Shown here: piece by piece, positions 1,315 to 47,360 of the stretch
Numbering within the stretch: the first letter of the stretch is position 1
Layout: each line of letters begins with the position of its first letter
Source: Olsenella sp. An290
Lineage (GTDB): Bacteria; Actinomycetota; Coriobacteriia; Coriobacteriales; Atopobiaceae
Direction: 5' to 3'
DNA: 64,000 nt
NCBI RefSeq assembly: GCF_002159535.1
Contig: NZ_NFIU01000002.1
Coordinates: 124,001-188,000 of the forward strand
Program-made: the position numbers and the translations under genes
Notes under the pieces: generated by a model
The model's database searches: none
What the model was told of the DNA's origin: nothing
The model's input: the letters and a program-made list of their open reading frames with translations, nothing else

Positions 1315-2928
1315 CTACTTGACGCGCGCCAGGCGCCCGTCGCGGATCTCGTAGATGCGGTCCGCCGCGGCGTCGAGCTCGCCCGAGTGCATGATGGCCA
1401 CAACGGTCCTGCGCCGCCTGAGCCCCGCGAGGTAGTCGCAGAGCCGCGCGGACGTGGCCGCGTCCAGGTTCGTGAGCGGCTCGTCCAGGAGCACGACCGG
1501 CTCCGGGCGCGAGAGGGCGCGCAGGAGCCCCAGCTTCTGCCGCTCGCCGAGCGAGAGGTTGAGCGGCTGGTCCGTGATGGCGCGCCCGGGCAGGTCGCCC
1601 AGGTCGAGCATCTCAGCGACCTCCGGGTCCGCCGCGGCGCCGAGGAGGTTGTCCTCGAGCGTGCCGGACACGACCGGCACCGGGTAGGTGAGATAGGCCG
1701 CGTCGAGCGCCCCGGGTGCAAGGGCGGCCCCGCCGTCGAGGTCGGCCGGGTCGGAGAGGCCGCGCAGGAAGTCCAGCAGGCGCGACTTGCCCGTGCCGTT
1801 GGCGCCCTTGATCACGACGAGCTCGCCGGGACGCACCTCGAGCTCCCCCGCGAAGAGGCGCTTGCCCTCCTCGCCGCGCTCGGGCGTGGCCCAGAGGGTC
1901 CCGTCGACGCGCGCCACGGGACCCGCGTCGGCGCGCGCCGCGAGCGTCCCGAAGCCGGAGGGCTCCTCGGCCTCCCCCGCGTGCTCGCGCAGCAGGACGA
2001 GGTTCGGTCGGCTGGCAACGTAGAAGCTCACGAACGAGCAGAGGTCCGCCATGGGCGACTGCAGCAGCGAGAAGAGCTGCCATGCCGCGACGACCGCCCC
2101 GAGCGTGATCTGTCCCGCGGCCCAAAGCGCCACGCACACGGCGAGCGCCGCGACCTGGAGCGCCGGCGACACGGCGGCGGGAAGCGTCGTCTGCGCGGTG
2201 TCGGAGAGGCGGTACCGGCGGAGAAACGCGCGGTACGCGTCCGTGCTCTTTGCAAAGCGCCGCTCGTAGAACCCCTCGGCACCCGCCGCGTTGGCGACGC
2301 GCTTCTCCTCCACGAGCCGGCGGACCTCCTCCTGCCAGGCCTCGCTCGCGGGCATCATCTCCATGAGCAGGCGCCCGGCGGAGTGCATGGGGCCCCAGTT
2401 GACCGCAAAGTACACGGCCAAGCCACAGAGAAAGACCGGCACGAGCAGGACGTCGATCGCCGCGGCGCAGCCCAGCAGCGCCACGACCGCGATCGCGCAG
2501 CCCACCACGTTCACGCTCAGGTAGACGGACATCGAGCCGTAGCCAAACGCCGCGGCGTTGACCACGTTGAGGAAGTGCCCGGCGTCGTGGCGCTCGAAGG
2601 CGCGCTGCGGCATGGCCAGCAGCTGGTCGATTGCCTCGTCCGAGGCGTCCACCTCCGCGCGGAGGTTGGCCTTGAGCGGCAGCCAGTCGTCAAGGGCGAA
2701 CTTCGCGAGCGCGGCCGCAAGCGACACCACGAGAAACGCCCCCAGCCGCCCCGCCGTCTCCCGGGGCGCAGGCGCGCCCGACGCCAGCCCGTCCACGATC
2801 GCGCCCAGCAGGTACGCCGCACCAGCCGACAGCACGGTCCCGGACGCCACGCCGAGCGCCAGCGCGAGGTTGCGCGCGCTCGGCCTGAAGAGGGGGTAGG
2901 CCCTCTCTTTCGATGCTCTTCTCGCCAT
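1315..2928 (-). CDS. ABC transporter, fused permease and ATPase
   Basis: 537-residue half-transporter. Residues about 20-300 hold hydrophobic segments of an exporter-type transmembrane domain. Residues about 330-537 form the ATPase, with Walker A GANGTGKS, signature LSLGERQ, Walker B VVLLDEP and an H-loop histidine in MHSGE. Such proteins dimerise in the membrane and usually export peptides, lipids or drugs; the substrate cannot be read here. The ATG at 2926-2928 follows AAGGAGAAGG. A longer in-frame start ten codons upstream lacks a better ribosome site. No partner ABC gene is adjacent, so a homodimer is likely. Confidence 0.85.
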   Translation of the reverse strand: MARRASKERAYPLFRPSARNLALALGVASGTVLSAGAAYLLGAIVDGLASGAPAPRETAGRLGAFLVVSLAAALAKFALDDWLPLKANLRAEVDASDEAIDQLLAMPQRAFERHDAGHFLNVVNAAAFGYGSMSVYLSVNVVGCAIAVVALLGCAAAIDVLLVPVFLCGLAVYFAVNWGPMHSAGRLLMEMMPASEAWQEEVRRLVEEKRVANAAGAEGFYERRFAKSTDAYRAFLRRYRLSDTAQTTLPAAVSPALQVAALAVCVALWAAGQITLGAVVAAWQLFSLLQSPMADLCSFVSFYVASRPNLVLLREHAGEAEEPSGFGTLAARADAGPVARVDGTLWATPERGEEGKRLFAGELEVRPGELVVIKGANGTGKSRLLDFLRGLSDPADLDGGAALAPGALDAAYLTYPVPVVSGTLEDNLLGAAADPEVAEMLDLGDLPGRAITDQPLNLSLGERQKLGLLRALSRPEPVVLLDEPLTNLDAATSARLCDYLAGLRRRRTVVAIMHSGELDAAADRIYEIRDGRLARVK

Positions 2929-3052
2929 GCCCTTCTCCTTCCACGAGGCTGGAACCATCGTAGGAACGAGAAGGACGCCGAAGGCCAGAAACGCGACACC
3001 GCCGAAGGAGCATCACCCGCAACCCGAAGATCCGGCGCACTCCCGTTGTCGG

Positions 3053-3163
3053 GCAAAAGGGGACGTGTTTTCTCGCTCAGAGTTTTTGGGACAGGCCTGC
3101 CCGCGTAAGCGCGGAGCAGGCCTGTCCCAAAAACTCTGAGCGAGAAAACACGTCCCCTTTTGC
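3053..3163. repeat. Long hairpin element: 48-bp perfect inverted repeat, stem extended to 53 bp
   Basis: Bases 3053-3100 and 3116-3163 are exact reverse complements. The ends read GCAAAAGGGGAC and GTCCCCTTTTGC. The 15-base centre adds five more pairs (CCGCG/CGCGG around TAAG), leaving one bulged base. The right end stops one base before the stop codon (3164-3166) of the glycosyltransferase. It could act as its terminator, but the perfect arms are far longer than needed, suggesting a recent mobile or REP/MITE-like element. The same end motif occurs at 8872-8898. Confidence 0.8.
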
Positions 3164-4453
3164 CTACGCGTCGCCCACGACCTCGTCAACGTTGACGGCG
3201 ATGTCGTGCTTGGTGGGGACCCACTCGACCTTCTTGAAGAGGGCGGCCACCGTGATGGGGATGTAGGTCATCATGAAGAGGGGGAACGTGAAGAGGTTCG
3301 TGAAGATCCGCCACTTCTTCTTGGCGTGGATGTGGCTACGCTCGGAGATCGTCGTGATCACGGCCAGGATGAAGAAGACGATGTACATGGAGGCAAAGGT
3401 CATCACGAGCGAGCCCACGCACATGGAGAGCTCAGCGTCGGTGGCGATGAAGCCGTGGCTGAGCGAGCCCACAATGAGGTAGGTGGCGTTCACGAAGAAC
3501 GAGAGCAGCGTCAAGATCATGCCCGGGGCCACGGTCATGAGCATGTCGTAGCTCGCAAAGCGGCCGCGGGAGATGCCCTTGAGAAGGTCTCGCCCATACG
3601 AGAAGAACACCTGATAGAAGCCTTTGGTCCAGCGCATGCGCTGGACCCAGGAGGCCTTGAGGGTGAGCGGCTGCTCGTCGAAGAACTCGGCGGGCGCAAA
3701 GCCGATCTGCACGTTGTTGGCGCAGCAGAACGTGGAGAACTGGATGTCCTCGGTGAGCGTGTGGAAGCCCCATCCGTGCATGCCGCGCACGATACGCTCG
3801 GAGACCATCCAACCGGAGCCGGAGATCGCGCAGCTCGTCCCCATCATCATGCGGGCGTTGTTGAGGAACTTGGCCTCGCGCATGAACCAGAGCGCGTAGG
3901 CCGAGCTCACCCAGCTCGAGTCGAAGTTCTTGGAGTTGCGGTAGCTCGTGCAGACGAGGTACCCCGCGTCGAAGGCCTGGTTCATGATCTTGAGGTAGTC
4001 GCGCGAGACGAGGTTGTCGGCGTCCATGACGATGAAGGCCTCGTAGCGGTCCCCGTACTCGTTGAGGATGCGGTCGAAGCCGTAGTCCATCGCCCAGCTC
4101 TTGCCGCGGCGGGCGAGGTCGTTTCTGTCCCAGACGATGGCGCCGGCCTTCTCCGCCTCCTCGTGCGTGCCGTCCGTGCACGCGTCGCAGACCACGAAGA
4201 CGTCCATGAGCTCGCGCGGGTAGTCCTGCGCGAGGATCGAGCGCACGAGGTTGCCGATGACGACCTCCTCGTTGTGCGCGGCGATGAAGAAGGCGTAGCG
4301 GTGCTGCTTCTTGGCCTCCGGCAGGCGCACCGTGCCCCGCATCATCACGCGCAGGATGTAGACGATCTGGTAGAAGTACGCGAGCGTAAAGAACAGCCAG
4401 ATTACCAGGTTGAAGATGACGATCGGCGTGAGGCCGAGCCTGTTGAACTCCAT
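3164..4453 (-). CDS. Family 2 glycosyltransferase, membrane-bound (PgaC/cellulose-synthase-like)
   Basis: 429-residue membrane protein. An N-terminal hydrophobic helix precedes a GT-A catalytic domain with the expected acidic motifs: CDACTDGT, VMDADN, TEDIQF and a QRMRW box, as in processive enzymes such as poly-N-acetylglucosamine synthases. Three or four membrane helices follow near residues 315-420. It probably polymerises or transfers a sugar from an activated donor on the inner face of the membrane; the sugar is unknown. The start ATG at 4453 follows GGAGGAAGG. It is the last gene of the ileS-lspA-rluD run, 20 bases after rluD. Confidence 0.85.
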   Translation of the reverse strand: MEFNRLGLTPIVIFNLVIWLFFTLAYFYQIVYILRVMMRGTVRLPEAKKQHRYAFFIAAHNEEVVIGNLVRSILAQDYPRELMDVFVVCDACTDGTHEEAEKAGAIVWDRNDLARRGKSWAMDYGFDRILNEYGDRYEAFIVMDADNLVSRDYLKIMNQAFDAGYLVCTSYRNSKNFDSSWVSSAYALWFMREAKFLNNARMMMGTSCAISGSGWMVSERIVRGMHGWGFHTLTEDIQFSTFCCANNVQIGFAPAEFFDEQPLTLKASWVQRMRWTKGFYQVFFSYGRDLLKGISRGRFASYDMLMTVAPGMILTLLSFFVNATYLIVGSLSHGFIATDAELSMCVGSLVMTFASMYIVFFILAVITTISERSHIHAKKKWRIFTNLFTFPLFMMTYIPITVAALFKKVEWVPTKHDIAVNVDEVVGDA

Positions 4454-4473: not shown

Positions 4474-5502
4474 TTACTCCCCCGCACGGGCGCCGAGCGC
4501 GGGGCAGATCAGCTCCCCCGCCTCCGTGCGGCCCATGGTGCGCTCCTTCAGTGAGTCCAGTATAGCGAGAAGGTCCTCGGGCAGGCGGTCGGCGAGCTCG
4601 ACGACCTCCCCCGTCGCGGGATGGTCGAAGCGGATGCGCCACGAGTGGAGGAACTGCCGGGTGAGCCCGAGGTTCTGCCGCGCGTCGCCGCGGCCGTAGA
4701 GCGGGTCGCCCACGAGGGCGTGGCCGATGTGGCGCATGTGCACGCGGATCTGGTGCGTGCGCCCGGTGTAGAGGTGGCACTCCATGAGCGTGTAGCCGTC
4801 GTCGCGCCGGCCCGCCTCGAAGCGCTCGAGGACGCGGAAGGTGGTGATGGCCTCGCGCGCGCCGGGCGCGTCCGAGACCGCCATGCGGATGCGGTCGCGC
4901 GTGGAGCGCGCGATGCCGGTGACGACGGTCCCCTCGTCATGGGCCACGTAGCCGTGCGTGAGGGTCACGTAGCGGCGGTCGAGGACGCGCAGGCGAATGA
5001 GGTCCTGGAGCGCCTTCTGCGTGGCGTCGTCCTTGGCGGCCACCATGAGGCCCGAGGTGTCCATGTCGAGCCTGTGCACGATCCCCGGCCGCTCCTCGCC
5101 CTGGAGCATGCCGAGGTGCGCGTAGCCGCAGTGCGCCACGAGCGCGTTGGCGAGCGTGTCGTCCACGTGGCCCGGGCTCGGGTGGCAGACGAGCCCCGCC
5201 TGCTTGGAGAGCACGATGAGGTACTCGTCCTCAAAGCGCACGTCGAGCGGGATGTAGGGGTTGGGCGCGAGGGGGCCGGCCGGGGCGTCGGGCTCGTCCA
5301 CGGTCGCGCGGACGCGGTCGCCCAGAAGGACCCTCTCGCTCTTGCTCGTGGCGGGCGTCTCGTTGATGGTGACGGAGCCCTCCTCCACCAGGCGGGCGCA
5401 CGCGGAGCGGCTGGGCATCCCCTCGCCGGCGGCGAGAAACGCGTCGAGCCGCATGCCGTCGCCGTCGGGCCCCACGAGCAGGTTGACGATGCGCTGCGGC
5501 AT
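4474..5502 (-). CDS. rluD: RluD/RluA-family 23S rRNA pseudouridine synthase
   Basis: 342 residues. An N-terminal S4 RNA-binding domain (about 15-75, with MRLDAFLAAGEGMPSRSACA) is followed by the RluA catalytic domain. The catalytic aspartate sits in HRLDMDTSG, and the GRTHQIRVHMRHIGH motif is intact. The family isomerises uridine to pseudouridine in 23S rRNA or tRNA; RluD itself acts on helix 69, but the exact sites here are inferred. It starts two bases after the lspA stop, so translation is probably coupled. The last 20 residues extend past the usual end. Confidence 0.88.
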   Translation of the reverse strand: MPQRIVNLLVGPDGDGMRLDAFLAAGEGMPSRSACARLVEEGSVTINETPATSKSERVLLGDRVRATVDEPDAPAGPLAPNPYIPLDVRFEDEYLIVLSKQAGLVCHPSPGHVDDTLANALVAHCGYAHLGMLQGEERPGIVHRLDMDTSGLMVAAKDDATQKALQDLIRLRVLDRRYVTLTHGYVAHDEGTVVTGIARSTRDRIRMAVSDAPGAREAITTFRVLERFEAGRRDDGYTLMECHLYTGRTHQIRVHMRHIGHALVGDPLYGRGDARQNLGLTRQFLHSWRIRFDHPATGEVVELADRLPEDLLAILDSLKERTMGRTEAGELICPALGARAGE

Positions 5503-8871: not shown

Positions 8872-8898
8872 GTGCAAAGGGGACAGTCCCTTTTGCAC
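8872..8898. repeat. Short palindrome sharing the ends of the 3053-3163 element
   Basis: GTGCAAAGGGGAC meets AGTCCCTTTTGCAC, giving a near-perfect palindrome with one G-U-type mismatch. Its ends match the ends (GCAAAAGGGGAC) of the large hairpin at 3053-3163, as if only the two termini remained. It lies in the untranslated leader between the T-box terminator and the ileS ribosome site. Confidence 0.65.
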
Positions 8899-15557: not shown

Positions 15558-15570
15558 CGGCACCGCAAAG

Positions 15571-15652
15571 CCGCAAAAAACGGAGAGACTGGCCCTCACC
15601 GCTCACTGCTTCGCAGAAGTCGCGCGAGGGCCGGTCTCTCCGTTTTTTGCGG
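15571..15652. terminator. Bidirectional terminator between ftsH and the RNA methyltransferase
   Basis: 27-base arms at 15571-15597 and 15626-15652 pair with one mismatch. The arms start and end in A6/T6 runs, so the hairpin can terminate both convergent genes. Confidence 0.85.
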
Positions 15653-15665
15653 CGGAGCCGCGGCC

Positions 15666-46946: not shown

Positions 46947-47329
46947 AGCGTGACTTCGAGCGAGCTTGTGCGGAAAACTCACTCGAAGGCACGTTTTTCT
47001 CGCCAGAAGCGTGACTTTGAGCGAGCTTTCCCACTCAGCTCGCGCAAAGTCACACTTTCGGGGCTGAAAGCGTGACTTCGAGCGAGCTCACACGGCAAGC
47101 TCGTTCAAGATCACGTTCTTCTCGCCCGAAGCGTGAGCTAGAGCGAGCTGGCACAGATACCTCACAAGAGATAACGCCCGCCAGCCAAAGTGTGACTTCG
47201 AGCGAGCTTTGCGGCCCGCCTCACTCAAAGTCACGGTTGCGACGCGGAAAGCGTGATTCTGAGTGAGCTGGCGCGGATAGCTCGCTCAAAGTCACGCATG
47301 CGGCCCCAAAAGCGTGACTTTGAGCGAGT
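46947..47329. repeat. Array of six hairpins plus one half-unit (GTGACTTnGAGCGAGCT)
   Basis: Left arms close to GCGTGACTTCGAGCGAGCT occur at about 46947, 47008, 47069, 47130, 47189, 47250 and 47311, a period of 59-61 bases. The first six are each followed after 7-12 bases by a right arm resembling AGCTCGCTCAAAGTCACGC; the fourth right arm is degraded and the seventh is missing. Arms vary at a few positions. No protein is encoded. It lies between the cspA terminator and the MarR promoter. Confidence 0.88.
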
Positions 47330-47360
47330 CTCCTTGAACGAGTCCCTGAAGACAAAAGAA

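Follow-up and report, generated by a model that had tools for sequence, protein, structure and literature searches.

Why does a long inverted repeat with fully complementary arms stand at the very end of a glycosyltransferase gene in Olsenella sp. An290, and what keeps the two arms alike? In the present study, this repeat was analysed within a window of 64,000 nucleotides (NZ_NFIU01000002.1, positions 124,001 to 188,000), part of contig C12 of the own genome (2.15 Mb, hereafter G000), and compared with its relatives in other genomes of the genus. The inverted-repeat search, with exact identity re-checked, gave two arms of 49 bp each, 100% complementary and 15 nt apart, the sole pair of this quality among the 16 inverted repeats listed for the window (at least 18 nt, arms at most 200 nt apart). 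A first-pass annotation of the sequence had described a perfect repeat of 48 bp at 3053-3163 and a 53-bp stem with one bulge; the repeat was confirmed with one outer pair that had been missed, and the predicted stem comes to 54 bp (five extra pairs across the loop, one bulge). The right arm reaches into the TAG stop of the glycosyltransferase gene (minus strand, 3166-3164), whose final base it includes; the start of this gene at 4453 was chosen by us, the open frame itself beginning further up at 4780. As an RNA of the same strand as the glycosyltransferase, the element folds at -115.8 kcal/mol, compared with -46.3 (sd 4.2) in 200 dinucleotide shuffles, none of which came as low. A neighbouring hairpin, of which one arm survives here, has kept both arms in other species, G014, G009, G029 and G016 among them. 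The features are collected in Table 1.

Table 1. Features of the palindrome and its surroundings (positions of the window)
Feature	Positions	Strand	Basis
Left arm, perfect inverted repeat	3052..3100	+	Inverted-repeat search, identity re-checked
Loop, five further pairs and one bulge	3101..3115	.	Inverted-repeat search, folding
Right arm, exact reverse complement of left arm	3116..3164	+	Inverted-repeat search, identity re-checked
TIR unit 1 (GGGGAC ... GGGACAGG, 37 nt), related to the units on both sides of transposase gene G000:C23:130776	3059..3095	+	
TIR unit 2, inverted	3121..3157	-	
TAG stop of the glycosyltransferase, last base inside right arm	3164..3166	-	
Family 2 glycosyltransferase (PF13641), element at its end	3164..4453	-	
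Surviving arm of neighbouring hairpin beside the gene end, second arm missing in own genome	3024..3044	.	
ABC transporter (PF00664 and PF00005), next gene, same direction as glycosyltransferase	1315..2958	-	

An intrinsic terminator, that is a short GC stem followed by a T run, does not fit the sequence, as no T-run terminator-like site was found in positions 2600-3600 of the window. The Rfam search of the element gave 4 matches (3 microRNA-precursor families), all below the gathering threshold, and an Rfam RNA family was discarded on this ground. A CRISPR or tandem array was rejected since the window copy is solitary in the sequence inspected. Other repeats were seen elsewhere in the window. 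An inverted repeat of 28 bp, 96% complementary with a loop of 28 nt, lies at 15570-15653. An array of alternating inverted repeats of about 20 nt (GCTCGCTCAAAGTCACGC and its complement) lies at 46950-47335; in the own genome it matched 97 segments (E 0.001, the query counted) and represents a separate abundant palindromic family. At 8876-8894, AAAGGGGAC faces GTCCCTTTT in a self-palindromic site that resembles a single TIR, near the start of a frame which we take to be isoleucyl-tRNA synthetase-like.

The DNA search of the own genome yielded nine two-arm copies, the window copy included, plus several single arms, and the other eight two-arm copies are 74-84% identical to the window copy. Window-type copies were present in 17 of 31 genus genomes (E 1e-6), and a family-wide search of 140 genomes matched those 17, all in the genus, and 0 of the 109 outside it. 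Hence, the genome search proposed in the first-pass annotation reveals a dispersed family and not a unique element, nor is the element conserved at this one locus in all relatives: a window-type dimer or its remnant occupies this gene end in 7 of 29 readable genomes, a count made by eye that includes the own genome.

The profile search found two Y1_Tnp genes (PF01797) in the own genome, with NF047646 scores of 79.8 and 77.5 bits, just below the cut-off of 80. One of them, C23:130776 (L010/L130), carries a pair of direct units on its upstream side and a single unit in inverted orientation downstream, all of the type AAAAGGGGACAGG-TTTTTTCTCTCAGAGAAAA-TGGGACA and about 40 nt long; the second, on contig C3, has a different flanking repeat. 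The check for a RAYT gene that had been advised was therefore positive, with a REP-type tyrosine transposase flanked by a unit like that of the window. The upstream units of this gene read GGGGACAG, which is the GGGGWSAS motif, and the window copy reads GGGGACGT, two off that motif. Across the genus, Y1_Tnp genes were present in 28 of 31 genomes and at 75 loci, from which 66 genes were parsed by motif and 9 were not parsed. A flanking inverted repeat of some sort was found at 64 of the 66 parsed genes and a strong one (score at least 40) at 58, compared with 0 of 56 in a control with flanks from unlike genes. Furthermore, transposase identity correlates with TIR similarity (Spearman 0.47, 56 genes, 0 of 1000 permutations as high). 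GGGGWSAS was exact in 33 of 64 TIR pairs and within one mismatch in 56, counted on either copy and strand and with no chance level computed. In the alignment of 35 of the 66 parsed proteins, N59, H60, H62, Y119, N123 and P124 were invariant and V61 nearly so. The transposase model (pLDDT 92.2) has 4er8, TnpA_REP, as its best PDB match (E 2.4e-8) and carries a C-terminal helical extension with helices at 188-252. Pfam HTH matches were weak and below cut-off in L009, the second own gene, and none was found in L010 or L155.

No GTAG/GTGG tag was seen in the listed units, which start with GGGGAC, and the classical GTAG REP was rejected for this reason. The suggestion of a REP/RAYT system thus holds for the RAYT-type gene and the dispersed family, but the GTAG REP class is only a near one, and palindrome and transposase fit best the TIR/TIRYT class (PMC3733652). 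According to that paper, TIR/TIRYT repeats ('TIRtrons') have a RAYT-like gene between long TIRs, several of which share GGGGWSAS, and the TIRs occur across genomes as singles, dimers and clusters, some of them self-complementary (PMC3733652). The present family has the same gene-flanking inverted repeats, the same motif and dispersed copies including dimers, whereas perfect dimers with concerted arms, the concentric nesting of families and a Coriobacteriia case are not known to us from PMC3733652, the main text of which does not mention 'Actinobacteria'. The transposases of the genus also resemble subclass 2.1 of TnpAY1, described in PMC6006769 as about 250 aa long with NHVH and YIHxNP motifs and a long C-terminal extension, and as including 20 of the 26 TIRYTs described by Di Nocera et al.; they share the NHVH HuH motif and a Y motif ending in NP. 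That account reports that REP-like sequences were not found near subclass 2.1 genes (PMC6006769), in contrast to the strong TIRs of the parsed genes here. The REPINs described in PMC3116915 have highly conserved 16-mers and imperfect palindromic cores, whereas the window element is a continuous perfect stem without the GTAG/GTGG tag. Among open-licence papers, we found none on palindromic repeats with a tyrosine transposase in Coriobacteriia, none on repetitive extragenic palindromic elements in Olsenella, and two that name TIRYTs or TIRtrons.

The same gene end was compared across species. Behind the stop of the glycosyltransferase gene, G000, G009 and G014 each have a window-type dimer whose tips read GGCAAAA, and G025 has a decayed one with these tips. 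G012 and G021 have a dimer of the window family with other tips, which may be separate insertions, and G029 keeps a remnant. In G017, the dimer at this place is built of a different TIR, that of L127, a gene of the same genome; G010 has a nested form interrupted by a contig end, and G030, G027 and G024 have a third TIR family. Counted by eye, 12 of 29 readable genomes have a TIR element at this end. Within the 37-nt unit, all arm changes between the same-tip dimers were mirrored in the opposite arm: 3 of 3 for G000/G009, 4 of 4 for G000/G014 and 5 of 5 for G009/G014. The decayed copy of G025, set against G009, had one mirrored change among two left-arm and seven right-arm changes. On a single-gene tree, G000 clusters with genomes that have no window-type dimer, so that common ancestry of the insertion requires losses or transfer; the G000 copy is probably orthologous to those of G009 and G014. 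An inversion of the loop at this locus was suggested by eye, is too short to judge and is not claimed.

The concerted state of the arms was then counted over all dimers. The dimer set was drawn from the own-genome matches, the best-scoring genus matches listed and the loci fetched for transposases, and it therefore leans toward window-like copies. Ends were set by motif with the middle 19-25 nt of each arm left free, and 10 of 65 raw matches were discarded as spurious or duplicate, leaving 55 non-redundant dimers. The arms were identical in 28 of these (25 distinct arm sequences) and unequal in 27; shuffled pairing gave a mean of 0.9 identical pairs and a maximum of 6 in 10,000 shuffles. Paired spacer feet, of at least 4 pairs, were present in 29 dimers, and identical arms occurred in 22 of these 29 compared with 6 of the 26 without them (Fisher p 1.3e-4). 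Between species, 13 loci gave about 31 mirrored changes against 1.9 expected (500 draws, one pair per locus), a mirrored share of 65% of arm changes; the figure takes in pairs matched by one flank only, some of which may compare separate insertions. At the pyrE end, where G014 and G029 match on both flanks (their glycosyltransferase genes are 97.6% identical), 2 of 2 unit changes were mirrored, and the whole stem had 3 mirrored changes and a single one at the tip. In G016/G017, the dimer at the pyrE end belongs to another TIR family and is matched by one flank; it had 5 mirrored changes and 2 single ones at the outer edge. At the yeiH end, an unequal dimer in G009 and a perfect one in G010 agree in the left arm and in 12 of 13 bases of the spacer; the right arm departs from the left at 7 places in G009 and at 0 in G010, and the flank to the right of the G010 dimer cannot be aligned to G009. 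Changes in one arm without mirrored ones were also seen in L190/L184 (3), L201/L214 (6) and L213/L218 (4), and the near-identical L208/L211/L220 had no mirrored change. The sequences support gene conversion, which the first-pass annotation had named, when it is read as arm-to-arm copying.

We propose that the window element is an inverted dimer spread by a TIRYT, probably old at this place and kept perfect by the copying of one arm onto the other, and we give this reading a probability of about 0.74. The building block would be a terminal-inverted-repeat unit of about 40 nt that belongs to a RAYT-like HuH tyrosine transposase (TIRYT). The cognate transposase probably spreads the units as single-stranded DNA, as their association suggests, no movement having been observed, and the units would persist mostly at gene ends, often touching stops. 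Head-to-head units would form a hairpin during replication, in which one arm templates the other by template switching or hairpin-templated repair; mutations would be erased or copied into both arms, so that the palindrome stays perfect as the sequence drifts. The comparisons demonstrate that the arms change in concert, and the enzymatic steps are those that we infer. In RNA, the hairpin begins at the stop codon and could delay termination, protect the mRNA or form its end, as published REP work would suggest. Template switching in inverted repeats is reported to make arms identical and to keep or make hairpins perfect (PMC8794818, PMC8604942); those reports deal with genes for RNAs and with short inverted repeats of yeast genes, whereas here the arms are 37 to 103 bp long and the dimers are dispersed.

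The paired changes could also be compensatory mutations under selection on the RNA, with the hairpin needed as a 3' end signal, that is a terminator, a protector of the mRNA end or a damper of translation. Genes beside the dimers, called by a simple codon score, were convergent in 17, co-directional in 25 and divergent in 8 of the 50 dimers with both flanks readable (5 of the 55 were left out), and at least one gene reads into 42 of them, as such selection would have it. The position touching the stop, emphasised in the first-pass annotation, is indeed common, with a stop codon at most 15 nt from the GGGGAC of the unit in 31 of the 50 (no null model). Among the gene ends read, the neighbouring hairpin is reduced to one arm in the own genome, so the palindrome may have taken over the 3' end. 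In REPINs, two inverted units form one hairpin, and compensatory changes are common (PMC3116915). According to work cited in PMC12306157, translation in E. coli is lowered by REPs that lie no more than 15 nt from a stop, and by analogy a damping of translation by the element at this gene end is plausible. A role as 3' end signal, for which the first-pass annotation had suggested domestication, is possible. Against RNA selection as the cause of perfection, 17 of the 29 readable genomes have none of any TIR family at the glycosyltransferase end (by eye), so that the element is not essential there. A stem of 49 bp is far above what a terminator needs, and a T-run site is missing near it. Furthermore, double transversions make up 20 of 34 mirrored changes (11 loci, one pair per locus chosen by us, including pairs matched by one flank only); a transversion cannot pass via a G-U pair, and these are thus counted for arm copying and against RNA compensation. 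Unequal dimers with arms of the same length show 84 differences between the arms, only 26 of which are A/G or C/T and leave a wobble pair on one strand, and tips are mirrored for at least 4 bases beyond the unit in 31 of 55 dimers. RNA-level selection is, on this evidence, an unlikely explanation.

Improbable to a similar degree is a one-step origin, in which a single inserted unit was copied by fold-back with no correction continuing afterwards. The copy-specific spacers, the paired feet and the mirrored tips would all be expected from it, and the yeiH end offers a possible starting point, with a single unit in G011. On the other hand, where an insertion is probably shared between species, its mirrored changes demand later events as well. 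One-step fold-back does not exclude continuing arm copying, and a mixture of the two is likely.

A perfect dimer might instead simply be young, each being a recent insertion or a replacement of the whole element from another copy, and this we regard as quite improbable. It would agree with the reuse of the same gene ends by different TIR families in different species, and with the prfC copies of G000, G008 and G014, which have unrelated spacers, may be separate insertions, and have identical arms in G000 and G008. But the spacers are almost all distinct among the dimers (three repeats removed); before this removal, a spacer was shared in 3 of 58 dimers only, those with matching flanks, so that the dimers were not simply copied from each other. 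A supposed set of mobile copies with a related spacer (L188/L193/L211/L220) was dropped, their flanks being one orthologous locus. The mirrored differences at the same tips, gene and site in G000, G009 and G014, and at pyrE in G014/G029, also speak against youth. The 'recent origin' put forward in the first-pass annotation is not supported, given these differences and the same-tip dimer after the same gene in G009, G014 and, decayed, G025; the window dimer is probably not recent but old at its site.

Many single-arm matches lie at contig ends (for example G022:C121, G025:C69 and G010:C207), and such palindromes therefore probably break short-read assemblies. Near-palindromes were also seen at contig ends of the fragmented G022 (L185 and L186, with arms of 197 bp with 2 mismatches and 111 bp with 6 mismatches), and these two are possibly assembly artefacts. 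That the perfect inverted repeats as such are products of assembly, which such very long near-palindromes and contig-end matches might suggest, is hardly credible, as perfect dimers are flanked by genes on both sides in G014, in G009 and in a 2.6-Mb contig of G008.

In addition to simple dimers, concentric palindromes were found. At yeiH in G017, a perfect stem of 57 bp has window-family arms on the outside and an L127-family dimer within them. At prfC in G009, outer GC-rich arms like the window-type tip surround a dimer of L142/L150 type in a 49-bp stem with 2 mismatches. On contig C34 of G014 (L191, 1268-1479), a perfect 103-bp arm is made up of two units of the window family, separated by 15 nt that derive from the L160 family. 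Such symmetry could arise if a template switch at an inserted dimer copied the lower arm back and the old top was lost. SbcD is part of the nuclease that attacks long palindromes in E. coli. Above the model cut-off it was found in 0 of 31 genus genomes, with a weak partial match in 2 (19 bits, E about 9e-4). Among 14 control genomes, 13 had a match and 8 were above the cut-off, so that this cut-off misses some real cases. It is suggested, as a tentative and rather doubtful idea, that palindromes of this genus perpetuate themselves without SbcCD to cut them, dimers at gene ends acting as hot spots of template switching with arm copying, and new TIR families that land in an arm re-topping existing hairpins symmetrically, by fold-back, into concentric palindromes, and that 3' ends are stable niches in which hairpins grow and are passed between transposase families.

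These findings provide a clean natural record of inverted-repeat arms co-evolving across species, in which a DNA-copying cause is separable from selection on the RNA, and they connect dispersed palindromes with perfect arms to the TIRYTs, a group of transposases that has received little study. They also lead to the idea that long perfect palindromes may persist in bacteria for want of the palindrome nuclease SbcCD.
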